Source: a virus. Taken from it: a DNA stretch of 23,380 bases. A program made the translations under genes and the position numbers. The stretch is from positions 1 to 23,380 of the IMG/VR virus record IMGVR_UViG_3300031250_000224. The stretch is one strand, 5' to 3'. The notes under the pieces are model-generated. The model did no database searches, was not told the DNA's origin, and saw only the letters and a list, made by a program, of their open reading frames with translations. Shown in pieces: positions 2,473 through 17,132 of the stretch (positions are counted from its first letter, which is position 1; each line of letters opens with the position of its first letter).

Positions 2473-2786
2473 CCGATGATACCGAGGTGTTCAACGCCGC
2501 CGATCCGGCGGCGGTCGACAAGAAGACGCGCAAGGCCGACCGGGTCGAGAACCGCCGGCTGGCCGCCTTCAAGACGGTGATGGCAAGCCGGGAGGGCCGC
2601 CGCTACGTGTGGTGGCTGCTGGAGCAAACCGGGGTGTTCCGCTCCAGCTTTACCGGCAATTCCACCACCTTCTTCAACGAGGGCCAGCGCAATGTCGGCC
2701 TGATGCTGGTCGCCGACATCAACGCGGCGGCGCCCGAGCTTTACATCGTCATGCTCGACGAGGCCAAGGACGATTCCAACGTCTGA
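2469..2786 (+). CDS. Bbp19-like phage structural protein
   Basis: This 105-residue protein is translationally coupled to the portal gene by an ATGA overlap. Its core (residues about 25-100) has the pattern I associate with the Bbp19 family of BPP-1-like podoviruses: a basic helix, GRRYVWWLLEQTGVFRSSF, a T/F-rich NSTTFFNEGQRNVGL segment, and a C-terminal helix ending in acidic residues. In related phages it follows the portal gene directly, as it does here. The biochemical role is not known to me; presence in the virion or in assembly is inferred from the family. It is the last gene before a strong hairpin terminator at 2802. Confidence 0.82.
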   Translation: MTDDTEVFNAADPAAVDKKTRKADRVENRRLAAFKTVMASREGRRYVWWLLEQTGVFRSSFTGNSTTFFNEGQRNVGLMLVADINAAAPELYIVMLDEAKDDSNV

Positions 2787-2801
2787 CCCTGCCGGCCATC
2801 C

Positions 2802-2840
2802 AGGGCGCCCGGAGGATACCTTCGGGCGCCCTTCGTTTGC
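2802..2840 (+). terminator. Rho-independent terminator after the portal operon
   Basis: A 12-bp stem (2802-2813 with 2821-2832, one G-U pair) and a 7-base loop are followed by a T-rich tail CTTCGTTTGC. It lies 15 bases after the Bbp19-like stop. The stem core GCGCCCGG and the tail recur at 7329-7361 and 15343-15379, which defines hairpin family 2 of this window. Confidence 0.75.
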
Positions 2841-3013
2841 GATGGGGCCGGAAGGAAGGATCCTTGTCGCACGACAATCAAAACTGCGCTTCAGCGACAA
2901 TCTGCCGCCATCCTGAATACCGATGATCGCCAGCCGGACGGCGTCAGGCGCAAGCCCGGCGCGCCCCCGCTGCACCAATGGATGAAATTTTATGACGCGC
3001 GGCAATCTTACCG

Positions 3014-3071
3014 CTTGACGGCCGCGCCGGAATGTGACTTGACTCTCTGCACGGCCACACGAGCGCCCGGA
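3014..3071 (+). repeat. 58-bp recurrent element, copy 1
   Basis: This block aligns without gaps to 3124-3181, 7281-7338 and 15295-15352. It begins CTTGACGGC, has AATGTGA at offset 18 and a second TTGACT at offset 26, and ends CACACGAGCGCCCGGA. The end is the left arm of hairpin family 2, but here the right arm is missing. It may be a promoter or regulator-binding site; no good -10 hexamer follows at 17 bases. The rest of 2841-3230 shows no gene, only a small inverted repeat (TTGTCG-CA-CGACAA near 2865). Confidence 0.6.
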
Positions 3072-3123
3072 CCCGTCGTCATCCTCACGCCCACCGACGC
3101 TACCGTGTTCCTTAATCTCTCCG

Positions 3124-3181
3124 CTTGACGTAGGCGTGCGAATGTGAGGTGGCTATACATGCTGTCATACGCGTGTCCGTA
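3124..3181 (+). repeat. 58-bp recurrent element, copy 2 (diverged)
   Basis: It starts CTTGACGTAGGCG and keeps AATGTGA at the same offset as the other copies, but the second TTGACT is changed to GTGGCT and the GCGCCCGG end is degraded. It contains TATACAT, a possible -10-like box, about 50 bases before the lipoprotein start. It sits 110 bp after copy 1 in direct orientation and may drive the lipoprotein gene at 3231. Confidence 0.5.
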
Positions 3182-3230
3182 GATTTACGTCTCCGGCGCC
3201 TCCGTTATTCCTGGTGCCATGGAGATCGAC

Positions 3231-3827
3231 ATGCATCCCGCTCGCCTGGTCACTGTCCTTGCCGCCCTCGCGATCGGCGGGTGCAGCCAAAATGAGCACC
3301 ATCGGGTCGACTACCAGGCCCTGGCGGCGGAAACCCCGTGGAAGATCGAACAGAATGGCAGCGAGACCCGATCGATTCCCCTCGGCGGCGGCGTGATCCG
3401 CCACCAAGACCGCAAGGACGGCAAAGTCTACAACCTCGACATGGATGAAAGCGGGCTGGGTGCCGTCGGCTGCGTATGGGAACTTTATGTGCAGATAAGA
3501 ACTGACATGGAGATTTGCCACAAAGAAGACATCGAGTGGAAAACTCTAATGTCAAACGCGATCAATGACATCAACTCATTCATTGTTGACAACAGCATCG
3601 ATGATACGACAAGAAACTACCTCGATGCCGTTTTGTCCGACAAGATGTCTGCGATAAACAAAGTCGCAGCTTCTGCTCCGAAAGAATTTATAGAAAAAGC
3701 GTGCTCATGGAACACATCAATGAGAATGCTTTCTCATCTGAAAGAGAATGGTCCGGCTGAGTTCAACTACTCTGTCAGGAAACTTTTATCCGTTCCAAGG
3801 CCGCCTGTTTCGATGCCTTGCTTATAA
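3231..3827 (+). CDS. Putative exported lipoprotein, phage cargo gene
   Basis: The protein is 198 residues from the ATG at 3231, chosen over 3219 because GGAG lies 6 bases upstream and the resulting N-terminus is a clean lipoprotein signal: Arg5, a hydrophobic run LVTVLAALA, then IGGC with the lipid-accepting Cys at about residue 18. Ser at +2 would favour the outer membrane by the usual Gram-negative rule. The mature part is hydrophilic and contains a few Cys and charged helices. From about 3490 onward the DNA is much more AT-rich than the flanking virion genes, which suggests recent acquisition. It lies between a terminator and a hairpin and near the 58-bp elements, like a moron. Superinfection exclusion or host surface change is inference only. 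I do not recognise the family. Confidence 0.7.
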   Translation: MHPARLVTVLAALAIGGCSQNEHHRVDYQALAAETPWKIEQNGSETRSIPLGGGVIRHQDRKDGKVYNLDMDESGLGAVGCVWELYVQIRTDMEICHKEDIEWKTLMSNAINDINSFIVDNSIDDTTRNYLDAVLSDKMSAINKVAASAPKEFIEKACSWNTSMRMLSHLKENGPAEFNYSVRKLLSVPRPPVSMPCL

Positions 3828-3844
3828 GGGCTTTCCGAGTAAGT

Positions 3845-3866
3845 GCGTGAACCAGATGGTTCGCGC
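3845..3866. other. Hairpin without U-tract in the 222-bp gap
   Basis: GCGTGAACC and GGTTCGCGC form a 9-bp stem (one G-U pair) with the loop AGAT, 17 bases after the lipoprotein stop. No T-run follows, so it may end or stabilise the lipoprotein mRNA. The rest of 3828-4049 has no coding signal except an AAGGAG before the ATG at 4050. Confidence 0.4.
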
Positions 3867-4049
3867 CGGGGCATGGCTTCCGCCTGCCCTCGCTCATGCC
3901 GCGCGGTCGAATTCCAGCCGACGACCGCGGCCACGCCGTCCGGACAACCATTGTCGGCGGCGCAATCTATCGATTCACAATCGGTCATCGGCCAAGTCCG
4001 CAGCCTCATCCCGAGCGCAATCCACTTCGCATGACACAAGGAGAATGCC

Positions 4050-4625
4050 ATGTCTTCCATCGAGCTTATTCGCACCCCAATCGCCAGCCCAGCACCGTCT
4101 GCGCCTGCTCCGGCGGCGGGTTCCGACGGCAGCAATGCGCCGCAGGCGGCGACGCAGTCCAACAGCTTCGCCCCGGTCTCCGCCGACCAAATCATGAATT
4201 CGGCGAATACCTGGAAGAACCACAGCCCCTATGGCCTCAGCGCCATCAACAAGGACATGGGGGCCGGCCAGGCCAAGGACCACCAGTGGGTCGGCGACAC
4301 CCTGACCCAGGCGGGCACCGGCAGCTTCGACACGCCGCAGACCCGGCCGTCGATCGCCGACTGGGCCGACAAGAACGCCGACATCCCCGGATGGAATGTC
4401 GTCGACGGCCCGGCCCGGAAGGGCGACGTGCTGGCGATGGCCAAGCCCAACAACCCGGTGTTCGGCATGCGCCTCGGCCAAATGGGCATCGCCACCGGCG
4501 ACGGCACCAGCATCGGCATGCCGATGGGCGGCGACATCATGGAGGGCGACATCGGCCTTGCCGACGGCGACAACGCCACCATCCGACGCTACGCCAACCT
4601 CGCCGACGGCGACGACGTCGCCTGA
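4050..4625 (+). CDS. NlpC/P60-like virion protein lacking catalytic residues, copy 1
   Basis: The protein is 191 residues, with AAGGAG 7 bases before the ATG. Residues 1-45 are a Pro/Ala/Ser-rich linker. Residues about 48-185 follow the layout of phage NlpC/P60- or amidase-like domains: N-SANTW, a helix ending in WVGDTLTQAG, SIADWADKNADIPGW, GDVLAM, MGIATGDGTSI and TIRRYAN. At the place where I expect the catalytic Cys (usual K-C-N-x-F-V) this protein has K-D-H-Q-W-V (Asp77), and the expected His of GHVGI is Gln144. If this alignment is right it is a structural pseudoenzyme. The alignment is from memory and moderate. A near-identical copy lies at 8785-9358. The stop is 22 bases before a 14-bp hairpin, and the scaffold-like gene follows. 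Confidence 0.65.
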   Translation: MSSIELIRTPIASPAPSAPAPAAGSDGSNAPQAATQSNSFAPVSADQIMNSANTWKNHSPYGLSAINKDMGAGQAKDHQWVGDTLTQAGTGSFDTPQTRPSIADWADKNADIPGWNVVDGPARKGDVLAMAKPNNPVFGMRLGQMGIATGDGTSIGMPMGGDIMEGDIGLADGDNATIRRYANLADGDDVA

Positions 4626-4683
4626 CCGTTCCAACCAATTTGACCTTCGACGACGGGCGCCCTTGCGGCGCCCGTCGTCGTTT
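4082..4683 (+). repeat. Long direct repeat, copy 1 (NlpC-like gene plus hairpin)
   Basis: About 600 bp from CGCCAGCCCAGCACCG through the hairpin at 4648-4683 is nearly identical to 8785-9417. The main differences are a 27-30 bp insertion in copy 2 (GlyAsn/SerAsp-rich linker) and scattered substitutions. Recombination between the copies would delete or loop out about 4.7 kb. Confidence 0.85.
4648..4683 (+). terminator. Hairpin family 1, copy 1
   Basis: A perfect 14-bp stem CGACGACGGGCGCC / GGCGCCCGTCGTCG with the loop CTTGC is followed by TTT. It lies between the NlpC-like stop and the scaffold-like start. The same hairpin occurs at 9382, 10914 (loop lost), 14605 and 17133. It could be a terminator or an RNA-processing site. 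Confidence 0.7.
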
Positions 4684-4709
4684 CAACCTCGCGAGCAAAG
4701 GAATTGACC

Positions 4710-5351
4710 ATGTCCGACCAGATCGTGTCCCAGAACGCCGATCCAGGAAACCTGCAGGCTGGCCCCGCGCCCGCCCCCGCCTCTCCCGACGCGGCGATGG
4801 GCGGCACGGCGGCACCCGAAACCTCTCCCGCCGTCGGCGAAGAGGCCCCCGACAATGCGGCCGCCACCGGCACGGCATCCGGCCCTCCGGAATCCTATGC
4901 CGACTTCACCGTGCCCGACGGCCTTGTCGCCGACCCGCAGCTCGCCGCCGAGTTCAAGGTCCTGGCCAAGGAATGCGGCCTGCCCCAGGAGGCGGCGCAG
5001 CAACTGGTCGACCTCTATGCCGAGCGGGTGCGCGACCTCGCCGAGTCCCCCAACCGCCTGTGGCAGCAGACCCAGGGCGAGTGGCGCCAGCAGGCGCGAT
5101 CCGACCGCGAAATCGGCGGCGCCCGATTCGCCGCCAATGTCGCCCTCGCCAACAAGGCCGTCGACACCTTCGGCGGCCCGGCCCTGCGCCAGGCCTTGGG
5201 GCAGACCGGGGCGGGCAACCACCCCGAGGTCATCCGCTTCTTCTGCCGCGTCGGCAACGCGATCTCCGAGGACGCCATGGTCGCGCCGCACTCCGCCGCG
5301 TCCCGCCGCAGCACCCTCGATATCCTCTTCCCCAATTTCGCCAAGGAGTGA
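4710..5351 (+). CDS. Scaffold-like phage protein
   Basis: The protein is 213 residues from the ATG at 4710, with AAAGGA 7 bases upstream. The first 65 residues are disordered and Ala/Pro/Gly-rich. The C-terminal part is helical and has the pattern of podoviral capsid-assembly or scaffold proteins encoded just before the major capsid gene: YADFTVPDGL, LAAEFKVLAKECGLPQEAAQQLVDLY, TQGEWRQQARSD, FGGPALRQALGQTGAGNHPEVIRFFCRVGNAISED. Scaffolds of this kind guide procapsid assembly and leave the head. The tail SRRSTLDILFPNFAKE is probably the capsid-binding end. Unusually, the capsid gene is 4.4 kb downstream, with cargo genes and a decayed second scaffold copy in between. The scaffold call rests on pattern and context. 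Confidence 0.72.
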   Translation: MSDQIVSQNADPGNLQAGPAPAPASPDAAMGGTAAPETSPAVGEEAPDNAAATGTASGPPESYADFTVPDGLVADPQLAAEFKVLAKECGLPQEAAQQLVDLYAERVRDLAESPNRLWQQTQGEWRQQARSDREIGGARFAANVALANKAVDTFGGPALRQALGQTGAGNHPEVIRFFCRVGNAISEDAMVAPHSAASRRSTLDILFPNFAKE

Positions 5352-5467
5352 TCGGCAGCAAGAACATCTTGAGAACGCCAGCAACATATGCTAGGAAATT
5401 TGATATCGACGCCTCCGGCTTGCGGGCCGGACGTGAAGAAGTAGGCGTAGACATCGTGGAGGAGGAG

Positions 5468-6685
5468 ATGCGTGCGTTCGCGTTGGTACTGTCGTGCGTC
5501 ATGCTGGTTGCAGGAGCTGCCTCGGCCCGCGACCGGGACCCGCCGGAGATCCGGCACATGATCTTCGACACCAGCGCGGATTGGGCGGTTCCCGAGGCCC
5601 CCCGGTCGTCGGGGTTCTATGCGGACTGGAAAGTGCCGGAATCACGCGATCTCCTCTTCCAACTCTACGATCTCGGCGATCCGCTCGCCCGCTTTCAGCA
5701 GTACTGGTATTGGTGGATGGCGGATCCAAGCAAACGCCAGGCCTTGCGTGATGAAATCGCCAAGAAGAACGATCCCGGCCTCGCGGATGTCGATTTGCGT
5801 GACGCCACCGTTCGGCTTGCCGCCGGTGAGGCAACGATGGAAGAGATGCGCATCGCCGTCGGCAGGCTGCCCAAGGGCAGTTCCGATCCCAATATCGGCG
5901 CCGACGAGGCCAGCGTCCTTGACACCGATCCCGGGCTCAAGGCCACGGGATGCCGATATTTTCTTCAGCGGCGGACGATCAGTCCCGACCACATCGTCGG
6001 ATGCCGGAAGGGCGCCCGGGACGGACAAGCGGCCTCGGCCTACCGGCTGGGGATGGTCTATCAGCGCCGCGGCGACGATTTCGACCGTGGATTGCTGCCA
6101 CAGATGCAACGCGCCCTCCACTTCCGCCCCGACCTGAAGACGGCCGTGCGCTATTTCCGCCAGGCCGCCGGCGCCGGCCATCCTGCCGCACAGGGGCGCA
6201 TGGCCCAGTTGTACGCCATCGGCCACGGGGTGAAGCGCGACGTGGCGGAAGCCGTGCGCCTCGCCCGGCTCGCCGCCGCCACGGACGATCCGGAAGGCCT
6301 CGCGGTGCTTGGGTTGCTGACCCTGCAGGGGCGCGGAGTGCCGGAAGACATCGCCGCGGGCGTCGCCTTGATCCGCAAGGCGGCCGAGCGCGGCAACCGC
6401 ATGGCGCAGTACACCATGGCAACCCTCTGTTTCCGCGGCCACGGCGTCGAGGCCGATGGCGTGGAGGCGCTGACCTGGCTGCGCCTGATCCACCTGGACA
6501 TCAAGAGCGGTGTGCGCGGCGACGCCGATCCTGCGGATTACGGTGACCTGATGGTCGAACCCTGGCCGCGCACCACTCAGATCGGCAATTACTACCGCCA
6601 GGTGCCCGACGCCGACCTCGAAGCCATCGCCAGATCGGCCGCCTTGCGCAAGAAATTGGCGGCAGATGGAACTTGGCCGTATTAA
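5468..6685 (+). CDS. Exported Sel1-repeat protein, phage cargo gene
   Basis: The protein is 405 residues. The start at 5468 is chosen because GGAGGAGG lies immediately upstream and the N-terminus MRAFALVLSCVMLVAGAASA is a signal peptide with an ASA cleavage site near residue 21. The reading frame stays open far upstream, but that stretch overlaps other genes. The second half holds Sel1-like (TPR-type) repeats, for example TAVRYFRQAAGAGHPAAQGRMAQLYAIGHGVKRDVAEAVRL and similar units at about residues 220-360. Such repeats bind other proteins, often at the cell envelope. It is not part of any virion family I know and sits inside the head gene cluster, so it is read as lysogenic cargo. A weak TTGAGA-17-TAGGAA promoter may lie at about 5370-5398. 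Confidence 0.75.
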   Translation: MRAFALVLSCVMLVAGAASARDRDPPEIRHMIFDTSADWAVPEAPRSSGFYADWKVPESRDLLFQLYDLGDPLARFQQYWYWWMADPSKRQALRDEIAKKNDPGLADVDLRDATVRLAAGEATMEEMRIAVGRLPKGSSDPNIGADEASVLDTDPGLKATGCRYFLQRRTISPDHIVGCRKGARDGQAASAYRLGMVYQRRGDDFDRGLLPQMQRALHFRPDLKTAVRYFRQAAGAGHPAAQGRMAQLYAIGHGVKRDVAEAVRLARLAAATDDPEGLAVLGLLTLQGRGVPEDIAAGVALIRKAAERGNRMAQYTMATLCFRGHGVEADGVEALTWLRLIHLDIKSGVRGDADPADYGDLMVEPWPRTTQIGNYYRQVPDADLEAIARSAALRKKLAADGTWPY

Positions 6686-6778
6686 AACTAATGTTCCAGA
6701 GTTCCTGAACTCGATGGCGAATATGTCGCATGGCACATCACCGACACATAATATTCTGCGGCAAAAGACACGGGCCCA

Positions 6779-7150
6779 TCATTGTCGAGCGGATCGCAGG
6801 ACGCCAACCACAACGTCGCATGCTGTGCCTTTCCCCCCCGGTCTTGCCTCATCTGCCCCCTTCACATCGTAACGGCATTTCTCGGTATTTACGTTAAAGT
6901 GCCGGTTTATTCCACCCGCATCAATATCCAGAACATATTCTGCCGGGCGCTCCTCTGAGCCGATAATGACGGCTTGACGCCGCTTGCAGTATAAATTCCC
7001 AGGGCAATACAGCACTGCGAACGGAATGCCACCTTCCGAGCGGGACAGAGTGACTGAATAGACATCAGCCGAATGCGCCTCAAAAGCAATTGTCGTGGAC
7101 AAAAGCGTAAATAGTGCCCTTGCGAAACCAGGACTTTTTCTTATCCCCAT
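6779..7150 (-). CDS. Small exported protein of unknown function, only minus-strand gene
   Basis: The protein is 123 residues from the ATG whose complement is 7148-7150. This start is chosen over upstream ones because a GGGG lies about 7 bases before it and it begins a signal peptide, MGIRKSPGFARALFTLLSTT, with AHS-A as the probable cleavage site. The mature part has four Cys (LYCPGNLYC, EKCRYD, GTACD), which suggests disulfides, and the phrases DIDAGGINRHFNV and KGADEARPGGKG look like a conserved domain, but I do not recognise the family. It faces the Sel1 gene tail-to-tail. It is AT-richer than the virion genes and oriented against them, both typical for a moron expressed from its own promoter. 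The 93 bases between it and the Sel1 gene show no clear terminator. Confidence 0.6.
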   Translation of the reverse strand: MGIRKSPGFARALFTLLSTTIAFEAHSADVYSVTLSRSEGGIPFAVLYCPGNLYCKRRQAVIIGSEERPAEYVLDIDAGGINRHFNVNTEKCRYDVKGADEARPGGKGTACDVVVGVLRSARQ

Positions 7151-7280
7151 GGCACACCCCATCAACAGCGGACACATTCCGCCATAACTATTTTCGCCAT
7201 ACAATGCATGCCCGATCACGCGTTGAAATTAGCAATCTGCCTCTACCGCGAGCCCACCGTAATTTTTGAACAACCATTAG

Positions 7281-7338
7281 CTTGACAGCAGCGACGGGAT
7301 GTGATTTGACTGTGCGCATCGCCACACGAGCGCCCGGA
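7281..7338 (+). repeat. 58-bp recurrent element, copy 3
   Basis: This ungapped match to 3014-3071 has CTTGACAGC, ATGTGA, TTTGACT and then GCCACACGAGCGCCCGGA. The last 10 bases form the left arm of the hairpin at 7329-7359. It lies between the divergent minus-strand gene and the exported CarG-like gene. Confidence 0.65.
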
Positions 7339-7361
7339 GAGAGACGTCCGGGCGCTTTTCG
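7329..7361 (+). terminator. Hairpin family 2, rightward terminator
   Basis: A perfect 10-bp stem AGCGCCCGGA / TCCGGGCGCT has an 8-base loop, then TTTTCGTTTG. The hairpin overlaps the end of the 58-bp element, so any rightward transcript begun in the element would meet it at once. Confidence 0.65.
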
Positions 7362-7465
7362 TTTGCCTGATCGCCAGTTCCCGCAAAGGTCGACGTTTCC
7401 GTTGACATTGCCCAGCCCCCAGCGCTGGGATTCGTCCAGCCAACGCATGGTCGAGGGGAACCGCG

Positions 7466-8623
7466 ATGACCGCGTCAAGGAAATGGATGAACGCCGCCAT
7501 GCTGGCCGGGCTCGGCCTGATGGCGAGCCTGTTGGCGGCAATGCCGGCCCGGGCCGAGGACGCCATCCCCAAATTCGATCCCAAGGACATGGTGCCGCTG
7601 GTCCATGGTCCCAATTGGGTCGATCTGGACGGTGATGGCAAACGGGACTTAGTGATGAAGGCGAGATCTGAAGTAAACGGCCCACACAGCTTTTCAATTT
7701 ACAGTTTTTTTATATTCGCCGACTCACGGAGCTACAAACACGAAGACCATGGCTGGGACTATGGCGAACCGCCATTCCGTTGGAATGCTGTTTCTTTCTC
7801 TGGTGAAAAACCACCACCTGACGAATTCATATTTTCAACCCACGAAAACGGTGACTGCTTGCGCAGGGACCTTCGTCTGGTAATAACGAAAGACAACAAC
7901 AGACAATCGAACTCGTATGTCATTACAGCAGAGAGAGATGATGTTGACAATTATTACAACCCGCAGCCGGTAACATTTGTTGTCTATAAACTAGAAAGGG
8001 ACAAAGAATTGGCATACGGCGGATTTTCGTTCATTGAGCAATCACGTTTTCAGACGAAGAGAAGGTATTGCTCGGTACTGAACGCATTTCAGACGGAACT
8101 CGGCCTGCAGAACCAGGATCGCGCTCTTAATCTGGATTACGAGGCAGGACCGATGACCCCAACCACAAGTGAATTAATGGAGCCTACGATGGACACTGCC
8201 GCCGAACAGACCGGCAATCGGACAATCGTCTACTATGACGATGAGGGCAACCCCACCCGGACACACAGCGGCGGGAATATCCAGTGGCGCAACAACAACC
8301 CCGGCAATCTGATACTTACACCTTTTACTCGTTCCATGGGGGCAATCGGGCGGGATAGTGCTGGGTTCGCCATTTTTCCAGATGCTGAAACTGGCCTGAG
8401 AGCCAAGGGCGCCCTTCTTCGGGAGGGACGCGGCTACAAAGGAAAGACCATTGCCGAAATGATGCCGGCCTATGCCGGTCTAAAGGACGATCCCGACAAA
8501 GCCAAACGGTACATCAAGGACATTGGGGATTTTTCCGGCCTTGACGTGAACCGCGAATCGGGCACCTTCACCGACGAGGAATGGGATCGATTGAACAAGG
8601 CAATCGCTCGGCGCGAGGGATAA
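7466..8623 (+). CDS. Exported CarG-like protein fused to a lysozyme-like domain
   Basis: The protein is 385 residues. A signal peptide (MTASRKWMNAAMLAGLGLMA to about residue 30, ending PARA-ED) is followed by a domain at about residues 45-220 with NWVDLDGDGKRDLVMKAR, HENGDCLRRDLRLV, NPQPVTFVVYKL and KRRYCSVLNAFQTELGL. From memory this pattern matches proteins named 'carbapenem self-resistance CarG family'; the match is moderate. Residues about 242-385 are a different module, with YYDDEGNPTRTHSGGNIQWR, NNNPGNL, FAIFPDAETGLRAKGALL and TIAEMMPAYA, as in phage lysozyme-like virion domains. An internal ATG at 8189 with GGAG 6 bases upstream could make the second module alone (144 residues). The CarG-like part is AT-rich. 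The frame remains open after the TAA at 8621. Confidence 0.65.
   Translation: MTASRKWMNAAMLAGLGLMASLLAAMPARAEDAIPKFDPKDMVPLVHGPNWVDLDGDGKRDLVMKARSEVNGPHSFSIYSFFIFADSRSYKHEDHGWDYGEPPFRWNAVSFSGEKPPPDEFIFSTHENGDCLRRDLRLVITKDNNRQSNSYVITAERDDVDNYYNPQPVTFVVYKLERDKELAYGGFSFIEQSRFQTKRRYCSVLNAFQTELGLQNQDRALNLDYEAGPMTPTTSELMEPTMDTAAEQTGNRTIVYYDDEGNPTRTHSGGNIQWRNNNPGNLILTPFTRSMGAIGRDSAGFAIFPDAETGLRAKGALLREGRGYKGKTIAEMMPAYAGLKDDPDKAKRYIKDIGDFSGLDVNRESGTFTDEEWDRLNKAIARREG
8189..8623 (+). CDS. Possible internally started lysozyme-like protein (alternative start)
   Basis: This is the same reading frame as the CDS at 7466. GGAG at 8179-8182 followed by CCTACG and ATG gives a good ribosome binding site exactly at the border between the CarG-like module and the lysozyme-like module. 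The product would begin MDTAAEQTGNRT and lack a signal peptide, as expected for a virion protein. It may be the original phage gene start, before the cargo module joined it. Confidence 0.4.
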   Translation: MDTAAEQTGNRTIVYYDDEGNPTRTHSGGNIQWRNNNPGNLILTPFTRSMGAIGRDSAGFAIFPDAETGLRAKGALLREGRGYKGKTIAEMMPAYAGLKDDPDKAKRYIKDIGDFSGLDVNRESGTFTDEEWDRLNKAIARREG

Positions 8624-9358
8624 CTTGATAAGAACGGTAACGTCATTGGGGTTGGCCAAGTCGTCAATCACCAGCCCCCCGCCCCGCCGCAGGCGACCGC
8701 CCCCGACGGCCAGGGAACCAACCCGCCGCCCTCTCCCTCCCCCGACAAGCCTTCGGATTCGGGAAATTCGGGCTCTGCCCCACCCGCCAGCCCAGCACCG
8801 TCTGCGCCTGCTCCGGTGGGTTCCGACGGTGGCAACGCCAGTGATGCCAATCCGGCCGGCGGCGGCAATGCGCCGCAGGCGGCGACGCAGTCCAACAGCT
8901 TCGCCCCGGTGTCGTCCGATGCCATCATGGATTCGGCGAATACCTGGAAGGGCCACAGCCCCTACGGTCTCAGCGCCATCAACAAGGACATGGGGGCCGG
9001 CGAGGCCAAGGACCACCAGTGGGTCGGCGACACCCTGACCCAGGCGGGCACCGGCAGCTTCGACACGCCGCAGACCCGGCCCTCGATCGCCGACTGGGCC
9101 GACAAGAACGCCGACATCCCCGGCTGGAATGTCGTCGACGGCCCGGCCCAGAAGGGCGACGTGCTGGCGATGGCCAAGCCCAACAACCCGGTGTTCGGCA
9201 TGCGCCTCGGCCAGATGGGCATCGCCACCGGCGACGGCACCAGCATCGGCATGCCGATGGGCGGCGACATCATGGCGGGCGATATCGGCCTTGCCGACGG
9301 CGACAACGCCACCATTCGACGCTACGCCAACCTCTCCGACGGCGACGACGTCGCCTGA
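8624..9358 (+). pseudogene. NlpC-like copy 2, separated by an in-frame TAA from the lysozyme-like module
   Basis: The reading frame of the preceding CDS stays open for 244 codons after its TAA at 8621-8623 and ends at 9356-9358. It reads LDKNGNVIGVGQVV, a long Pro/Ser-rich linker, then the complete NlpC-like domain (about 95% like 4050-4625, with the same Asp and Gln in place of Cys and His). No ATG with a ribosome binding site exists; the only early start is a GTG at 8816 inside the linker, without a Shine-Dalgarno sequence. The simplest reading is one ancestral protein, lysozyme-like - linker - NlpC-like, broken by a single nonsense mutation. Readthrough or reinitiation could still express it. 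Confidence 0.6.
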
Positions 9359-9417
9359 CCGTTCCCGACCTTTTCGAGCTTCGACGACGGGCGCCCTTGC
9401 GGCGCCCGTCGTCGTTT
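8785..9417 (+). repeat. Long direct repeat, copy 2
   Basis: This is the partner of 4082-4683 and includes the family 1 hairpin at its right end. After it, homology to the first locus continues, in decayed form, into the scaffold gene. Confidence 0.85.
9382..9417 (+). terminator. Hairpin family 1, copy 2
   Basis: The 14-bp stem and CTTGC loop are identical to the hairpin at 4648, followed by TTT. It stands between NlpC-like copy 2 and the scaffold remnant. Confidence 0.7.
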
Positions 9418-9420
9418 GAA

Positions 9421-9715
9421 GTCCAGCCTGCCGGGAACCTGCCCCAGAACACCGACGCAGGATTCCCATAGGCTGGCCCACCGGCCGCAGAGCCCGCCCC
9501 CGCCATCGCCGACGCGGCGGCGACGGGCCGCCGGTGGACACCGCCCGAAGCACCTTTTTCCTCGCCCGCCGCGTGCGGCGAGGGCCTGGCCGCTTCGGCG
9601 CACTCCCGCGTCGGCAAAGCGATATCCGAGGATGCCAAGGCGGCACGCCACTCCGCAGCGGCCCGCCGCAGCCCCCTCGATATCCCCTTCCCCAACTTTT
9701 TAGGAGTAATTTCAC
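9421..9715 (+). pseudogene. Decayed, internally deleted second copy of the scaffold-like gene
   Basis: There is no open frame, but the DNA follows the scaffold gene at both ends. Near 9440-9530 it has CCCAGAACACCGA, GCAGG, GGCTGGCCC, GCCCGCCCCCGCC and GACGCGGCG, in the order found at about 4730-4800. Near 9606-9705 it has CGCGTCGGCAAAGCGATATC, GAGGATGCC, CACTCCGC, GCCCGCCGCAGC, CTCGATATCC and CTTCCCCAACTT, as at 5247-5341. About 350 bp of the middle is missing and the frame is broken. Its last bases carry the TAGGAG used by the capsid gene. It shows where a scaffold gene once stood directly before the capsid gene. Confidence 0.75.
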
Positions 9716-10756
9716 ATGGCAACCATAGGCGGAACCGCCCTCACCTATGCCGACTGGGCCCAGCGCGTCGGCGACGACGGCACCATCGAGGTCGTCAACC
9801 TGTTGTCCCAGACCAACGAAGTCCTCCAGGACATGCTGGTGGTCGAGGGCAACCTGCCCACCGGCCACAAGACCACGGTACGCACCGGCCTGCCGCAGGC
9901 AGCCTGGCGCCTACTGAACTACGGCGTGCCCAAGGCCAAGTCCACCACCGCCAATGTGGTCGACACCTGCGGCATGCTGGAGGTCTATTCCGAGGTCGAC
10001 AAGGGCATCGCCGATCTGAACGGCAGCACCCAGTCGTTCCTGCTTTCCGAGGAACTGTCGTTCCTCGAGGGCATGAACCAGCAGATGGCGCAAACCCTGT
10101 TCTACGGCAACACCGCGGTCAACCCCGAGCGCTTCCTCGGCCTCGCGCCGCGCTACACCACCGTCAACACCAGCAACGCCCAGAACGCCGCCAACGTCAT
10201 CGACATGGGCGGCACCGGCTCGACCAACACGTCGATCTGGCTGGTGGTGTGGGGTCCGCACACCGTCCACGGCATCTTCCCCAAGGGGACCAAGGCCGGC
10301 CTGCAGCGGAACTTCAAGGGCGAGTGGACGGTCCAGGACGCCCAGGGCGGCCAGTACCAGGCCTACCGTACCCACTACAAGTGGGATTGCGGCCTGACGG
10401 TGCGTGACTGGCGCTACGTCGTTCGGCTGGCCAACATCGACGTCTCGACCCTGTCCGGCGGCACCCCGCCCGACCTGATCAAGGCGCTGATCCGCGGCCT
10501 GCACCGCCTGCCCACCCAGCCGGTCTCGGCCGGAAACGAGCAGGGCAGCGACAGCAACGACATCGCCGCGACCATGGGCCGCACGGTGATCTATTGCAAC
10601 CGAACCGTGCGCTCGTGGCTGGACATCCAGGCCAGCTACAAGTCCAACCTGCTGCTCAGGATGGACGAGTTCGGCGGCAAGCCGGTCACCACCTTCCGCG
10701 GCGTGCCGATCAAGACCTGCGACGCGCTCTTGAACACCGAGGCACGCGTCGTCTGA
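9716..10756 (+). CDS. Major capsid protein
   Basis: The protein is 346 residues, with AGGAG 9 bases before the ATG. The sequence pattern is that of major capsid proteins of BPP-1-like podoviruses: LTYADWAQRVGDDGTIEVVN with LLSQTNEVLQDMLVVEGN near the N-terminus, TGHKTTVRTGLPQAAWRLLN, a middle KSTTANVVDTCGMLEVYSEVDK, FLEGMNQQMAQTLFYGN, WDCGLTVRDWRYVVRLANID, and a C-terminal part ending in FRGVPIKTCDALLNTEARVV. It should adopt the HK97 fold and build the icosahedral head together with the Bbp16-like cement protein encoded next. The length fits the family. The gene is complete and shows the GC-rich codon use of the backbone. Confidence 0.9.
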   Translation: MATIGGTALTYADWAQRVGDDGTIEVVNLLSQTNEVLQDMLVVEGNLPTGHKTTVRTGLPQAAWRLLNYGVPKAKSTTANVVDTCGMLEVYSEVDKGIADLNGSTQSFLLSEELSFLEGMNQQMAQTLFYGNTAVNPERFLGLAPRYTTVNTSNAQNAANVIDMGGTGSTNTSIWLVVWGPHTVHGIFPKGTKAGLQRNFKGEWTVQDAQGGQYQAYRTHYKWDCGLTVRDWRYVVRLANIDVSTLSGGTPPDLIKALIRGLHRLPTQPVSAGNEQGSDSNDIAATMGRTVIYCNRTVRSWLDIQASYKSNLLLRMDEFGGKPVTTFRGVPIKTCDALLNTEARVV

Positions 10757-10958
10757 TACCAACCGGCCAATGAACTGTCCGGTTGTATTGCCCCACGCCG
10801 GGCGCGCGCGTCCGCGCGCTTGGCCGCGGCCTCAACGGCCGCCGGATACCGGCCGCCGAGTCTGTTCGATCGTCGGCCGGTATGAGCGGTCTCTGTTTCC
10901 TCGCCTGCAACCTTCGACGACGGGCGCCCGTCGTCGATTTTTTCACAGGAGTACTTCC
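10757..10958 (+). promoter_or_regulatory. Highly structured intergenic leader before the cement gene
   Basis: No ORF is convincing here. In order there are inverted repeats CAACCGG/CCGGTTG (10760-10785), a GCGCGCG-rich hairpin near 10802-10819, GGCCGCGGCC near 10822, ATACCGGCC/GGCCGGTAT (10846-10883, 20-base loop), and the shortened family 1 hairpin at 10914-10943. The stretch could end capsid transcripts or protect the mRNA. Confidence 0.5.
10914..10943 (+). terminator. Hairpin family 1, copy 3, loop deleted
   Basis: It starts TCGACGACGGG and is a perfect 24-bp palindrome (10914-10937) followed by six T. Compared with the other copies, the loop and one GGCGCC half are missing, so the arms meet. 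The run of T makes it the most terminator-like member of the family. Confidence 0.75.
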
Positions 10959-11411
10959 ATGATCATCGACGCCAATCTTCAGTTCGACCCGACCGGCACG
11001 GCAGTCACCGCCACCGGCCCCTCCACCAACGTCATCGACCTGGGCACCGCCCGCGACATGGGCATCGACGACGACGGGCTGGAGGTCTTCTGCATCGTGC
11101 AGCAGACCTTCACCGCCGCCGGCGCCGCCACCCTGACCGTTCAGGTGCAGTCGTCGGTCGACAATTCGACCTTCAACACCCTGGTCGAGTCCGCCGCCAT
11201 CCCGGTCGCCAAGCTGACGCTGGGCACCGAGATCCTGCGCTGCAAACTGCCGGCCGACCAGCCGGCGCTGACCGCCGGCATCGGCCGCTATCTGCGGCTC
11301 GAGTACGTCGTCGCCACCGGCCCCTTCACCGCCGGCAAGGTGCAGGCCGCCCTGGTGCTCGACCGCCAGGCCAACATCGCCTACCCGCCGGGGGTGGTGG
11401 TCAGCAACTAG
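10959..11411 (+). CDS. Bbp16-like capsid cement protein
   Basis: The protein is 150 residues from the ATG at 10959, with AGGAG 7 bases upstream. The frame is open further upstream through the hairpin region, but no site there supports a start. The pattern MIIDANLQFDPTGTAVTATG, STNVIDLGTARDMG, FTAAGAATLTVQVQSSVDN, a LTLGTEILRCKLP middle and RYLRLEYVVATGPFTAGKVQ is that of the Bbp16 family. In BPP-1 this beta-rich protein sits on the outside of the capsid and staples major capsid subunits. The gene follows the capsid gene as expected, and a small coupled gene comes 10 bases later. Confidence 0.88.
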   Translation: MIIDANLQFDPTGTAVTATGPSTNVIDLGTARDMGIDDDGLEVFCIVQQTFTAAGAATLTVQVQSSVDNSTFNTLVESAAIPVAKLTLGTEILRCKLPADQPALTAGIGRYLRLEYVVATGPFTAGKVQAALVLDRQANIAYPPGVVVSN

Positions 11412-11806: not shown

Positions 11807-14134
11807 ATGGCAACAATTATGCAAGCTTCGTTCGCCGGCGGCGAACTGGCGCCGGCTTTGGCCGCGCGCGTCGACTACAGCAAGTACCATATCGGCGCCA
11901 AGCGGCTGCGAAACTTCTTCGTCCAGGCGTCGGGCGGCGTCGCCAACCGGTCGGGAACCCGCTTCGTCGGGCGGGTCCGCGATTCCGCCCATCCGGTGCG
12001 CCTGATCCCGTTCCAGTTCTCCACCACCCAGACCTACGTGCTGGAGTTCGGGCACCTTTACGTCCGGGTGGTGATGAACGGCGGCCATGTGCTGGAGCCG
12101 CCCTTCGCCATCACCGCCGCCACCCAGGCGTCGCCGTGCACGGTCACCGCCGGCGGCCACAATTTCGCCAACGGCGACGAGGTCTACCTCACCGGGATCG
12201 GCGGCATGACCCAGCTGAACGGCAACCGCTACCTGGTGGCGGGGGTGGCGGGGGCGACCTTCCAGCTCAACACCCTCGACGGGGCGGCGGTCGACGCCAC
12301 CCATTTCGCCGCCTTTGCCAGCGGCGGCACGGCGGCGCGGGTCTACACGCTGGCGACCCCTTATGCCGGCTCCGACCTGGCGCTGCTGAAGTTCACCCAG
12401 TCCGCCGACGTGATGACCTTGACCCATACCGCCTACGCGCCGATGGACCTGACCCGCAGCCAGCACTGGGCGTGGACGCTGTCCGCCATCACCTTCCAAC
12501 CGAAGATCGGCGCCCCCACCGGCGCCACCGCGACCCCGCACGGCGGCGGCGGCCAGTACTATTCCTACCAGGTCACCGCGCTGACCGACAGCCCCGCCGA
12601 GGAGGGCCTGCCATCGGCCGCCTGCGACTGCCAGAATGCCGCCCTCAACCAGAACACCGGGGTGATCAACACCATCAGCTGGGCCGCGGTCAGCGGCGCC
12701 GCGCGCTACCACGTCTACAAGGCGCCGGTGGGCACCACCGGGCCGATCCCCGCCGGCTCGATCTACGGCTATATCGGCACCACCACCGGCACCAGCTTCG
12801 ACGACGCCAACATCGCCTCGGACGCCAGCCAGACCCCGCCGGAAGGGCGCAACCCCTTCGCCGGCGGCAACAATCCCGGCTGCGTCACCTATTACCAGCA
12901 GCGCAAGATCTTCGCCGGCTCGTCCGCCAATCCCGAGAGCGTGTGGATGACTCAGCCGGGCAATTTCTGGAACATGGACACCTCGTCGCCGACCCGGGAC
13001 GACGATTCCATCACCATCACCATCGCCTCGCAGCAGGTCAACGCGGTCAAGCACCTGGTCTCGGTCAGCGCGCTGCTGGTGCTGACCGGGTCGGGCGCCT
13101 TCAAGATCTCGGGCGGCGCGCAGGGCGCCGTCCTCACCCCTGCCCAGACGGTGGTACAGCCGCAGTCCTACAACGGCTGCTCGGACGTGCCGCCGCTGAT
13201 CATCGATTACGACATTCTCTACGTCCAGTCCAAGGGCAGCATCGTCCGCGACCTTTCCTACAACTTCTACGTCGATCTCTACACCGGAGCGGACATAACG
13301 CTCACCGCCAGCCACCTGTTCTTCGGCCACCAGATCGTCGCCTGGGCGTGGGCCGAGGAGCCCTACAAGCTGGTGTGGGCGGTGCGCGACGACGGCACGG
13401 CCCTGACGCTGACCTACCTCAAGACCGAGCAGGTCTGCGGCTGGGCCCAGCACGACACCCAAGGCCGGTTCAAATCGGTCGCCACCATCTCCGAAGGCCA
13501 GGAGAACGCGGTCTATTTCGTCGTCAGCCGCACCGCCCCCGGCGTCGCCGGCGGCCAAAGCGTGCAGTACGTCGAGCGCCTGGCCAGCCGCAACCTGCTG
13601 GTCGACGGCATCGCCGACGTCACCAAGGGCTGGTTCGTCGATTGCGGCCTGCAATATTCGGGAACCCCCACCACCACGGTGAGCGGGCTGGACCATCTCG
13701 AAGGCCTCGCCGTCGCCATCCTCGCCGACGGCAACGTCGAACCGTCGCAGGTGGTCAGCGGAGGCAAGGTGACGGTGCAGCACCCGGCCTCGACCATCAC
13801 CGTCGGGCTGCCCTATTCCTGCGATCTCCAGACACTGGCGATCGACGCCGGCGACCACTCCATCCTCAGCGAGCGCAAGCGGGTCAGCGCGGTGACCCTG
13901 CTGGTCGAGAACAGCCGCGGCCTCAAGATCGGCCCCGACGCCGACCATCTGGTCGAGGTCAAGGAACGGGTGGCCCAGGGCTACGGCCAGGCGGTGCCGC
14001 TGAAGACCGGCAGCGAGCGGGTGGTGATCCCGCCGTCGTGGAACGCCGAAGGCTCGGTGCTGGTGCGCCAGGACAATCCGCTGCCCTGCTCGGTGCTGGG
14101 CGTGCTGCCCGAACTGAGCGCCGGCAATGGCTAG
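11807..14134 (+). CDS. Tail nozzle-like protein (tail tubular protein B type)
   Basis: The protein is 775 residues, close to T7 gp12 (about 790). The N-terminus has the typical pattern of these large tail proteins: ASFAGGELAPALAARVDYSK, RLRNFFVQASGGVANRSGTRFVG, VRLIPFQFSTTQTYVLEFGH, LYVRVV. Residues about 101-182 are an inserted beta domain (NFANGDEVYLTGIGGMTQLN, NRYLVAGVAGATFQL) that annotation pipelines often label 'ubiquitin-activating E1 FCCH domain'. A fibronectin-like region follows at about 230-330. In the family this protein forms the tube tip through which DNA leaves the virion. It is coupled to the next gene by an 8-base overlap. Confidence 0.82.
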   Translation: MATIMQASFAGGELAPALAARVDYSKYHIGAKRLRNFFVQASGGVANRSGTRFVGRVRDSAHPVRLIPFQFSTTQTYVLEFGHLYVRVVMNGGHVLEPPFAITAATQASPCTVTAGGHNFANGDEVYLTGIGGMTQLNGNRYLVAGVAGATFQLNTLDGAAVDATHFAAFASGGTAARVYTLATPYAGSDLALLKFTQSADVMTLTHTAYAPMDLTRSQHWAWTLSAITFQPKIGAPTGATATPHGGGGQYYSYQVTALTDSPAEEGLPSAACDCQNAALNQNTGVINTISWAAVSGAARYHVYKAPVGTTGPIPAGSIYGYIGTTTGTSFDDANIASDASQTPPEGRNPFAGGNNPGCVTYYQQRKIFAGSSANPESVWMTQPGNFWNMDTSSPTRDDDSITITIASQQVNAVKHLVSVSALLVLTGSGAFKISGGAQGAVLTPAQTVVQPQSYNGCSDVPPLIIDYDILYVQSKGSIVRDLSYNFYVDLYTGADITLTASHLFFGHQIVAWAWAEEPYKLVWAVRDDGTALTLTYLKTEQVCGWAQHDTQGRFKSVATISEGQENAVYFVVSRTAPGVAGGQSVQYVERLASRNLLVDGIADVTKGWFVDCGLQYSGTPTTTVSGLDHLEGLAVAILADGNVEPSQVVSGGKVTVQHPASTITVGLPYSCDLQTLAIDAGDHSILSERKRVSAVTLLVENSRGLKIGPDADHLVEVKERVAQGYGQAVPLKTGSERVVIPPSWNAEGSVLVRQDNPLPCSVLGVLPELSAGNG

Positions 14135-14648
14135 GATCGATGTCGTCGCCGCCGCGGCCGGCCATGTCGCCCCCATCGCCGCCCGCATGCGCCATGCCGA
14201 CCGCGAGGAGGCATGGGCCGCCGCCCGGCTGGAGCCGGAGGCGGCGCTCCGGCTGTCGCTGGCGGCGTCGCCGCTGGCATGGACCGGCCGCGTCGACGGC
14301 CGCCCCGAATGCATGTTCGGCGTCGGCGCGGGCGGAATTCCCTGGCTGCTCGGCAGCGATGCGGTCGAGCGATACGCCACGGGATTCCTGCGGCGCAACC
14401 GCCCCTATGTCACGCGGATGCTGGAGACCTTCGGCCACCTTTCCAACTGGGTCGACGCCCGCAATACGGCGTCGATCCGCTGGCTGAGGTGGCTGGGATT
14501 CACCATCGAGGCGCCGCGGCCGTTCGGGCCTTCGAACCTGCCGTTCCATCCGTTCTGGATGACACGGATCGGCGACGCCAACCGTTCCCGACATCTTCGA
14601 GCTTCGACGACGGGCGCCCATGCGGCGCCCGTCGTTTGCAACCCATAG
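14127..14648 (+). CDS. T7 gp13-like protein with acetyltransferase-type fold
   Basis: The protein is 173 residues and overlaps the nozzle gene by 8 bases. The pattern ARMRHADREEAWAAARLEPE, ALRLSLAASPLAWTGRVDGR, PECMFGVGAGGIPWLLGSDA, RRNRPYVTRMLETFGHLSNW, VDARNTASIRWLRWLGFTIE matches the phage gp13 family, a GNAT-like protein needed for normal virion assembly in T7. The natural end of the family lies near FHPFWMTRIGD. Here the last 25 residues are encoded by the family 1 hairpin DNA, because the stop codon that precedes this hairpin in three other places is missing. The extended C-terminus is probably non-functional ballast. Confidence 0.8.
   Translation: MARIDVVAAAAGHVAPIAARMRHADREEAWAAARLEPEAALRLSLAASPLAWTGRVDGRPECMFGVGAGGIPWLLGSDAVERYATGFLRRNRPYVTRMLETFGHLSNWVDARNTASIRWLRWLGFTIEAPRPFGPSNLPFHPFWMTRIGDANRSRHLRASTTGAHAAPVVCNP
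14605..14637 (+). terminator. Hairpin family 1, copy 4, inside the gp13-like reading frame
   Basis: Stem CGACGGGCGCC/GGCGCCCGTCG (11 bp, loop CATGC) is followed by TTT. The right arm lacks one GTC, so it is shorter than copies 1, 2 and 5. Ribosomes reading the gp13-like gene run through it to the TAG at 14646. Confidence 0.6.
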
Positions 14649-14659
14649 CGAGGAAAATC

Positions 14660-15286
14660 ATGGCTTCCGATATCGACATCTGCAATCTGGCCCTGCTGCG
14701 CCTGGGCACCCGTTCCTCGATCTCGTCGCTGTCCGAAAACAGCACCGAGGCGATGACCTGCGCCCTGCTGTTTCCGGTGGTCCGCGACGGCCTGCTGGCC
14801 CGCCACCACTGGGGTTTCGCCAGCCGGCGCACGGCGCTGGCCGACCTCGGCCTGCCGCCCGACCCGTGGGCGTTCCGCTACGCCTATCCCACCGATTGCC
14901 TGCAGGCCCGCTCGATCCACCAGCCGGTGGCCGGCGCGCCGCTGATCCCCTTCGCGATCTCGGGCGACCAGGACGGCGCCGGCAACCCGATCCAGGTGAT
15001 CCTCACCGACCAGCCGCAGGCCGAGCTGGTCTACACCGCCCGCATCGCCTCGGCCGCCCTGTTCGACGCCACCTTCGTCGAAGCGCTGTCGTGGACGCTG
15101 GCCGCCGAACTGGGCGTCGCGCTGACCGGCGACCGCGGCATGGCGACCTACTGCATGCAGGCAGCCGGTGTCGCCGTGGCCGGCGCCAAAGCCAACGACA
15201 GCAACGAGACCCCCGATGTCGTCGACCGCACTCCGGAATGGATCGGAATTCGTGGCGCCACCATGGGCGGCGCGTCTGTCGCTTGA
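14660..15286 (+). CDS. Tail tube adaptor protein (tail tubular protein A, T7 gp11-like)
   Basis: The protein is 208 residues (T7 gp11 is about 196), with GAGGAAAA before the ATG. The N-terminal pattern is diagnostic for this family: DIDICNLALLRLGTRSSISS, then EAMTCALLFPVVRDGLLARH, HWGFASRRTALADLG, YAYPTDCLQARSI. After a beta region (VILTDQPQAELVYTARI) comes FVEALSWTLAAELGVALTGD. Family members form the ring between the portal and the nozzle, completing the tail tube. It is the last virion gene before the AT-rich cargo array, and the 58-bp element begins 9 bases after its stop. Confidence 0.85.
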   Translation: MASDIDICNLALLRLGTRSSISSLSENSTEAMTCALLFPVVRDGLLARHHWGFASRRTALADLGLPPDPWAFRYAYPTDCLQARSIHQPVAGAPLIPFAISGDQDGAGNPIQVILTDQPQAELVYTARIASAALFDATFVEALSWTLAAELGVALTGDRGMATYCMQAAGVAVAGAKANDSNETPDVVDRTPEWIGIRGATMGGASVA

Positions 15287-15294
15287 AAAAGTAC

Positions 15295-15352
15295 GTTGAC
15301 GGCATTAGCAAAACGTGGTTTGACTCGGCGTATCGCCATAGGAGCGCCCGGA
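15295..15352 (+). repeat. 58-bp recurrent element, copy 4
   Basis: It has GTTGACGGC, ACGTGG, TTTGACT and then ATCGCCATAGGAGCGCCCGG, aligned without gaps to the other copies. It starts directly after the tail gene and overlaps the hairpin at 15343. Confidence 0.6.
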
Positions 15353-15379
15353 GGGAAACTTCCGGGCGCTTCGCGTTTG
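15343..15379 (+). terminator. Hairpin family 2 after the tail adaptor gene
   Basis: A perfect 10-bp stem AGCGCCCGGA/TCCGGGCGCT with an 8-base loop is followed by TCGCGTTTGG. It separates the tail operon from the membrane-protein array. The next 98 bases hold no gene. Confidence 0.6.
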
Positions 15380-15477
15380 GCGGATGCGGTCGAGGCCGGC
15401 AGTGGGGCGTGGTTTGTGTCGCCATGCCTTGCGCCTTTCTCAGGAAATTCCTCTGTTTGTTGCCTGATGCCGGACTT

Positions 15478-15526
15478 CACGCTACCATATTGCGGTATTG
15501 CGCGGACGTCGTTAGCGGGAAAAATT
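15478..15526 (+). promoter_or_regulatory. Conserved leader of membrane-protein unit 1
   Basis: CACGCTACCATATTGCGG, then GGACGTCGTTAGCGGGAAAA to the ATG at 15527, matches 15934-15983 and 16550-16598. It contains the ribosome binding site and, in units 2 and 3, an inverted repeat around ACCATA/ATCATA. It may be a promoter-operator or an mRNA leader. Confidence 0.55.
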
Positions 15527-15886
15527 ATGAGACCACCTCTTTACTTCATTTTCGAAAAGGCAGCCGAAAAGCGGTGCCGCTATGAAACTGCGGAAAGCTA
15601 TATCATCCGTCCAAACACGTTATTTGACGATGAATTTCTGGCAGACACAGCGACAAAACGTGCGTTTGTTCATTGTGCATCCATGGTAATGTACGCATTA
15701 TTTGTTCTAAGCGGCATCGCCGCCATCTTGTTTAAACTACTTGTCAGCCCAGACAGCAATGGTTGGTATATATTCTGCGGCACTGGCGCCGCCATATCGT
15801 TAACTATAGAGCGTTATTTGTTTGTCCGCTTTCTCACCAAGAAGCTAGACGGCGCAAACAATTCCAGAAATTTACGCACACGCTGA
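15527..15886 (+). CDS. Two-TM membrane protein, paralogue 1
   Basis: The protein is 119 residues from the ATG at 15527 with GCGGGA upstream; a longer upstream frame runs through the terminator and is rejected. Residues 1-50 are hydrophilic (PPLYFIFEKAAEKRCRYETA, ESYIIRPNTLFDDEFLADTA). Two membrane segments follow: about 53-75 (ASMVMYALFVLSGIAAILFK) and about 80-100 (GWYIFCGTGAAISLTI), then a basic tail RYLFVRFLTKKLDG. Two paralogues follow in tandem. The DNA is AT-rich. The family is unknown to me. Holin, immunity or superinfection-exclusion roles are possible but unproven. The last 10 residues run into a remnant of the small partner ORF seen after paralogues 2 and 3. Confidence 0.7.
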   Translation: MRPPLYFIFEKAAEKRCRYETAESYIIRPNTLFDDEFLADTATKRAFVHCASMVMYALFVLSGIAAILFKLLVSPDSNGWYIFCGTGAAISLTIERYLFVRFLTKKLDGANNSRNLRTR

Positions 15887-15933: not shown

Positions 15934-15983
15934 CGCGCCACCATAGCGCGCAATTGCTCGGGCGTCGTCAGCGAGGGAATATT
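15934..15983 (+). promoter_or_regulatory. Conserved leader of membrane-protein unit 2
   Basis: This is homologous to 15478-15526. TGCGCG and CGCGCA flank CCACCATAG (15932-15953), a 6-bp inverted repeat, followed by GGGCGTCGTCAGCGAGGGAA and the ATG at 15984. Similarity to unit 1 extends about 40 bases further upstream (GGAAGATCTCTTGTTTGG). Confidence 0.55.
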
Positions 15984-16310
15984 ATGAAACCGCCGTTGTT
16001 CATCTTTTTCGAAAAGGCTGCGGAGGCGTGCTGCCGGTACGCATCTACCGATAGCTACATCATCCGACCAGACCCCATATTCAAGACAGAATTCGTAGTA
16101 AATATAGACGCCAAAAGAGATTTCGTCACGTACGCATCGCGCGTACTGTACGGGCTGTTTGTATCAAGCGGCATTGCCGCACTTATATTTAAGTTATGCT
16201 TTTATCCTAGCGATCACTCCTGGCTGGCATTCTGCGCATTTGCATTAGTTATCATTATCGCTATGAGAAACATCCTTTTAGTCAGATATCTCAACAGGAG
16301 GATAAAATAA
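15984..16310 (+). CDS. Two-TM membrane protein, paralogue 2
   Basis: The protein is 108 residues with GAGGGA before the ATG. It is the most diverged of the three: KPPLFIFFEKAAEACCRYAS and SYIIRPDPIFKTEFVVN keep the family pattern, followed by TM1 (SRVLYGLFVSSGIAALIFKL), TM2 (WLAFCAFALVIIIAM) and a basic tail LVRYLNRRIK. The stop TAA overlaps the ATG of the small partner ORF (TAATG), and AGGAGG at 16296-16301 serves that start. The AT-rich DNA contrasts sharply with the virion genes. The function is unknown; the conserved hydrophilic N-terminal motif ESYIIRP probably forms a small cytoplasmic domain. Confidence 0.7.
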   Translation: MKPPLFIFFEKAAEACCRYASTDSYIIRPDPIFKTEFVVNIDAKRDFVTYASRVLYGLFVSSGIAALIFKLCFYPSDHSWLAFCAFALVIIIAMRNILLVRYLNRRIK

Positions 16311-16549: not shown

Positions 16550-16598
16550 CACGCTATCATAGTGTGCTATTGCCTGGACATCGTCAGCGAGGAATATT
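16550..16598 (+). promoter_or_regulatory. Conserved leader of membrane-protein unit 3
   Basis: CACGCTATCATAGTGTGC, GACATCGTCAGCGAGGAATA and the ATG at 16599 match the leaders of units 1 and 2. GCACGC and GTGTGC can pair (one G-U) around TATCATA. Confidence 0.55.
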
Positions 16599-16937: not shown

Positions 16938-17110
16938 CACTTTCGACACGCTGCTTGGCCATCTTTGGCGCGCTCAAGACCGATGACGAACGGGAGGCCA
17001 TTTCCGGTCTCATGACGGCCCTCTGTCAACACGCCGTTGGCACAGGAATCGGCACCAGCATCGGCATGCAATTGGGCGGCCAGATCCAGGAGGGCGACGA
17101 CGTCGCCTGA
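16924..17110 (+). CDS. Small partner ORF of unit 3, shifted frame, end fused to the NlpC-like 3' end
   Basis: After AGGAGG (16911-16916) the expected start is ATT (16924), not ATG; its frame reads IPAIDTFDTLLGHL and stops at 16984. The +1 frame continues GALKTDDEREAISGLMTALC, QHAVGTGIGTSIGM, then QLGGQIQEGDDVA and TGA at 17108. The last part copies the 3' end of the NlpC-like gene (TSIGMPMGG, EGD and DGDDVA there). It may be a pseudogene, or expressed by a +1 shift at CTT TGG C (16963), or from a TTG at 16955 (51 residues). Confidence 0.45.
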
Positions 17111-17132
17111 CCGTTCCGACATTTTCGAGCTT

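Follow-up and report, generated by a model that had tools for sequence, protein, structure and literature searches.

Two related blocks around cargo genes, and a scaffold remnant beside the capsid gene, in an epsilon15-type phage

The genes for scaffold and capsid stand next to each other in nearly all relatives of the phage described here, whose own intact scaffold gene lies 4.4 kb upstream of its capsid gene. The window analysed covers a virus record in full (23,380 bases). Family profile matches show a gene set typical of short-tailed phages whose capsid is of the epsilon15/BPP-1 type. The phage is probably temperate, since cargo genes are typical of temperate phages. The landmarks of the late operon are as follows.

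778–2472, + strand: portal (head-to-tail connector), the fixed point of the late operon (PF12236, E 1e-168; phrog_332, E 1e-169)
2469–2786, + strand: Bbp19-like gene (PF25181, E 2.6e-14)
4710–5351, + strand: predicted scaffold gene, intact, with a largely helical product of 213 aa (phrog_458, E 3e-49; AlphaFold2)
9421–9715, + strand: scaffold remnant, with a 5′ piece at about 9435–9519 and a 3′ piece at 9603–9698
9716–10756, + strand: major capsid protein, epsilon15 GP7 type (PF20911, E 1.8e-134; phrog_212, E 8e-89)
11807–14134: tail protein (family match)

The intact scaffold gene and its distance from the capsid gene

Position, modelled shape and family all point to 4710–5351 as the scaffold gene. 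It belongs to phrog_458 (E 3.4e-49, residues 17–211), which PHROG labels ‘protease’, and starts at ATG 4710, the mechanical open reading frame at TTG 4704. The AlphaFold2 model (mean pLDDT 77) has the shape expected of a scaffold, a disordered N-terminus followed by long helices (76–89, 93–131, 137–166 and 172–188); searches of the PDB by sequence and by fold gave nothing significant, the fold search having no match at E ≤ 0.001. An alignment of 61 sequences identifies 26 conserved columns, 24 of them within residues 55–177, and the left copy retains all 24 (24/24), which bears out the original prediction of an intact scaffold-like gene at this site.

Relatives were gathered by a search with the capsid (80 viral contigs and 36 bacterial contigs). 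The nearest by capsid identity are L089 (81%) and L009 (79%), from which the capsid gene of the window differs by a dS of 0.39–0.44. In 109 of 112 relatives the scaffold stop lies within 200 bp of the capsid start (median 43.5 bp), the exceptions being L116 (237 bp), L118 (281 bp) and L099 (1345 bp). Since the distance in the window is 4364 bp, the working scaffold gene is truly parted from its capsid gene, as had been proposed. Comparison with L009 and L089 gives the order from which the window departs: a single scaffold gene directly before the capsid gene, with Bbp19, scaffold and capsid set end to end without gaps. In both, the stop codon of the Bbp19-like gene overlaps the scaffold start, and in L089 the capsid ribosome-binding site overlaps the last codons of the scaffold. 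The gene and hairpin that are repeated in the window (below) are absent from L009 and L089, and no second scaffold was found in any relative compared. In L099, a Reyranellaceae MAG, a 1.3 kb stretch (8656–9980) with a minus-strand open reading frame parts scaffold from capsid, an independent example of cargo at this junction.

The scaffold remnant beside the capsid gene

The similarity on which the original prediction depended is present: aligned to 4710–5351, the stretch 9421–9715 scores 67 against a maximum of 25 in 40 dinucleotide shuffles. Self-comparison of the window resolves it into a 3′ piece (5243–5338 vs 9603–9698, 81/96 identical or 84%, E 7e-24) and a weak 5′ piece (4721–4796 vs 9435–9519, 72%, E 2e-5). 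The weaker 5′ part (9421–9602) by itself scores 33, with a maximum of 28 in 100 shuffles. The remnant has no start codon, carries an in-frame TAG at 9469–9471 and lacks its middle, and all 24 core columns fall in the missing part. It had been described as gapped and frame-broken. The decay is evident, but there is no frameshift between the pieces; because both share one frame, the gene was broken by a deletion, a stop and the loss of its start. Towards its 3′ end it is 2 nt short of the left copy, so that its frame reaches the capsid gene without a stop codon. Read from its sequence, it is dead as a scaffold gene.

Through the scaffold–capsid junction the remnant is collinear with L089 (9603–10756 vs 1758–2916). 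This alignment, together with the spacing rule, indicates that the decayed copy occupies the old place by the capsid gene; with the missing conserved core, it upholds the claim that the capsid-adjacent scaffold was lost. At the 15 differences between the copies in their shared 3′ end, the two outgroups (L009 and L089) both match the left copy at six and the right copy at none, and the right copy is therefore the one that changed. Of these six changes in the right copy, five affect the first or second base of a codon, which fits the expectation of decay. The last bases of the remnant contain AGGAG about 10 nt 5′ of the capsid ATG, and the corresponding site in L089 forms the final codons of the scaffold (AAGGAGTAA). 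We infer that the 3′ end survived because the ribosome-binding site of the capsid gene lies in it.

The repeated blocks and the cargo between them

Upstream of both the intact gene and the remnant lies the same long direct repeat, and the two blocks enclose the inserted genes.

4050–4625, + strand: left copy of the repeated gene, weakly NlpC/CHAP-like, 191 aa (ATG, ribosome-binding site AAGGAG; no family match)
4075–4686, + strand: left long repeat, comprising gene body, spacer and hairpin (blastn self-comparison)
4648–4680, + strand: GC-rich hairpin of the left block (RNA fold −33 kcal/mol, z −6.5)
5352–8777, no strand assigned: inserted stretch between the blocks (GC content and family matches)
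5468–6685: Sel1-repeat gene (Sel1, PF08238, E 1.5e-17)
7466–8623: CarG-like/muramidase gene (CarG-like PF21955, E 8e-7; phrog_873 endolysin, E 1e-9)
8624–9358, + strand: right copy of the repeated gene, within an open frame that continues the frame of TAA 8621–8623 immediately behind it
8778–9420, + strand: right long repeat (blastn self-comparison)
9382–9414, + strand: GC-rich hairpin of the right block (RNA fold −33.8 kcal/mol, z −5.1)
17050–17167, + strand: third, partial copy, with the last codons of the repeated gene, spacer and hairpin (self-comparison)

A blastn comparison of the window with itself finds 4075–4686 and 8778–9420 homologous (90.0% over 643 columns with four gap openings, E about 0), with a core in which 535 of 565 positions are identical (95%). 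This confirms the near-identity first noticed between 4082–4683 and 8785–9417. The left repeat begins at codon 9 of gene 4050–4625 and ends just past the hairpin, so that the repeat spans nearly the whole 191-codon gene, its 3′ spacer and the strong hairpin, whose 33 nt are identical in the two blocks. The third copy closes a small open reading frame (16934–17110); its 17090–17167 matches 9338–9416 at 96%, and 17050–17098 matches 4502–4550 at 86%.

The GC-rich hairpin forms a family of five copies (4648, 9382, 10914, 14605 and 17133), each 5′ of a gene start; at 10914 the palindrome is shorter and a run of six T comes after it. A second repeated element (3013–3071, 7280–7371 and 15294–15385) stands ahead of three cargo regions, forms a strong hairpin in two copies (GCGCCCGGAG...CGGGCGC) and may be a cargo control element. 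Exact-pattern searches of viral contigs with both repeated DNA elements gave no match, the exact hairpin pattern is absent from the relatives and from the 190 genomes searched, and a search of Rfam was likewise negative.

Neither copy of the repeated gene (4050–4625 and 8816–9358) has a match in Pfam, PHROG, NCBIfam or PDB. The label ‘NlpC-like’ given to it at first is weak. Both copies lack a match to an NlpC/P60 or CHAP peptidase profile in Pfam, PHROG and NCBIfam, and profile comparison with the NlpC and CHAP profile sets gave a weak result. The sole distant relative in 289 genomes (L125, E 5e-5) itself matches CHAP at an E of 3e-4, below the cut-off. Both copies contain zero cysteines, among them no catalytic one, so that a product with the NlpC/CHAP fold could not be a cysteine peptidase. 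No relatives of the repeated gene were found in the viral contigs, genome contigs or phage records searched, and none of L125 in the viral contigs or phages. The AlphaFold2 model of the gene product (pLDDT 31) was unusable.

The earliest possible start of the right copy is GTG 8816, which has no ribosome-binding site. As the copy is without a good start and its frame reaches back to a TAA, the whole right block may be silent. After TAA 8621–8623, the end of the CarG-like/muramidase frame, the same frame stays open through a proline-rich linker and then the right copy, with no start until GTG 8816. A fusion that was later broken may have left this arrangement, or it may have arisen by chance. 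A two-domain origin, with the muramidase joined to the repeated gene, was considered and set aside: seven muramidase relatives end soon after the domain or carry other sequence, and the TAA at 8621 may therefore be an ordinary gene end.

The extra genes between the two blocks amount to 3.4 kb. GC content is 51–56% over 6500–8500 compared with 64–70% in the phage genes. As expected of morons, L009 and L089 lack all that separates the scaffold gene from Bbp19 on one side and from the capsid gene on the other. Hairpins mark the cargo borders, and positions 7328 and 10914 have terminator-like sites; a sigma-70-like promoter was not found in 2700–11000. Further downstream, a small predicted membrane protein gene, which has no family match, is present in three diverged copies (15478–15886, 15936–16310 and 16550–16937) that are 73–79% alike at the DNA level, a duplicated stretch of cargo.

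Origin of the two blocks

Taken as a whole, the arrangement is best explained, and we think probably so, by cargo uptake, duplication of a block, decay of the capsid-side scaffold and gene conversion. Cargo genes (‘morons’) would have been taken up into the head-gene operon, and the segment of repeated gene, hairpin and scaffold would have been doubled in the course of this uptake, leaving 3.4 kb of cargo between the copies. The scaffold protein would act in trans, such that the copy 4.4 kb upstream could still serve head assembly; the capsid-adjacent copy would then have become redundant and decayed, its last part being retained for the capsid ribosome-binding site. The repeated genes would later have been kept alike, most likely by gene conversion.

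Gene conversion enters because the blocks have not diverged evenly. The original prediction had one duplication at cargo entry followed by scaffold loss. The loss stands, but silent divergence is not equal along the duplicated block, as a single tandem duplication followed by decay would have it: dS between the copies reaches 0.37 at the scaffold 3′ end (about 24 silent sites only), whereas the repeated gene shows 0.10 (p = 0.013). In the 96 bp of scaffold, 15 differences are observed where about six are expected (p about 0.001 under a rough model). Within the repeated gene, 12 differences fall in the first 126 bp and nine in the next 363, a roughly fourfold difference in rate (p = 0.002). The unequal divergence disfavours one recent duplication with uniform change, and its variation inside the repeat needs either gene conversion or two parents.

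An origin from two parents, in which the left block of one related phage was joined to the cargo and right block of another, is the less probable of these, though a realistic possibility. Each parent would have carried repeated gene, hairpin, scaffold and capsid; the scaffolds would have differed from the start and the redundant capsid-side one would have decayed. This accounts for the much greater divergence of the scaffold copies than of the repeated gene's core, at a dS (0.37, from few sites) of the same order as the capsid dS of the window against L009 and L089 (0.39–0.44). The hairpin spacer of the right block is also nearer to the copies at 14581 and 17090 (96%) than to the left block (about 90%), and cargo insertion points vary widely across the phage family. 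Against it, a C-terminal sequence (HSAA-RRS-LDI-FPNF) is common to both scaffold copies and missing from L009 and L089, which makes the copies close kin, and the second parent was not found in the collections searched. The history of the repeated gene cannot be dated, because no relative carrying it was found in a phage. We favour duplication with gene conversion over two parents, without strong evidence between them.

It is unlikely that the contig fuses two strain variants of one population at a stretch they share, so that no genome holds both blocks. The window is known here as an assembled virus record, and repeats of 612–643 bp are classic points of assembly mis-joining. However, neither copy is truncated and many positions distinguish the two, the sequence between them (5352–8777) is unique, and mis-joining within the repeat would merge two copies into one and not make two, so that any join would have to lie elsewhere; the remnant is a truly broken gene whatever the join.

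The long repeats had also been proposed to allow loss of the cargo by recombination. As a harmless route this is not supported: a crossover in them would delete a 4.7-kb segment that includes 4710–5351, the one scaffold gene that is intact in the window, and of the scaffold only the remnant would be left. The phage would thus lose its scaffold, unless it has a further one beyond this record. That they are a working device for cargo shedding is highly improbable, for although direct repeats of about 600 bp at 90–95% identity are possible substrates for general recombination, the product would lack 4710–5351, and a long scaffold frame beside the capsid gene would result only if the crossover fell in the 96-bp repeat of 84% identity. 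As shedding the cargo by way of the long repeats would cost the scaffold, the arrangement can be read the other way round, as protecting the cargo. Duplication and loss of the downstream scaffold might have locked the cargo in, if repeat recombinants cannot assemble, a long shot suggested by the gene order. The idea that the cargo is kept from loss via the very repeats made by its entry is testable; if true, gene order alone, without an addiction gene, would guard the cargo.

The processes at work in the window, cargo insertion, duplication and gene loss, are well known in phages; what is unusual is that cargo at the scaffold–capsid junction coincides with a duplicated block, one copy of which is dead. 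There are good descriptions of morons in late operons, and in P22-like phages they occupy one site of the morphogenetic cluster, where genes may be degraded (PMC2629481). The ant moron of these phages resembles the cargo here in consisting of extra, usually independently expressed genes between structural genes, recognized by comparing relatives, and in being often variable and partly decayed; the morons of those P22-like phages lie at a single place (PMC2629481), whereas the cargo of the window splits scaffold from capsid, and a duplicated part of the head operon flanks it on either side. The window shares the epsilon15/BPP-1 head type: a GP7/Bbp17-type capsid, a Bbp19-like gene and a portal, with the phrog_458 gene between (PMC3863775). 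In relatives of that type the phrog_458 gene adjoins the capsid gene (109/112), whereas here that place is taken by the remnant, 4.4 kb downstream of the intact gene. L099 is alike in having its 1.3 kb and minus-strand frame between scaffold and capsid, but a duplicated block and second scaffold piece were not found there. A literature search on phage scaffold duplication had no relevant paper among its hits. The window offers a clear snapshot of the way in which cargo can enter a tightly packed head operon: a duplicated structural gene gives slack and one copy decays, with the outcome that two genes which nearly all relatives keep side by side end up separated.

Downstream of the capsid gene, the match of the tail protein 11807–14134 is broken in many relatives at about residue 353 and around residues 97–178, so that gain or loss of segments a few hundred bases long has occurred at these places. 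The tail gene that follows (14663–15286) is placed ahead of the 11807–14134 homologue in L009 and L089. The internal virion protein frame 14127–14648 (phrog_308) extends about 26 codons beyond the point where the match in relatives ends, and this extension reads through the hairpin at 14605.
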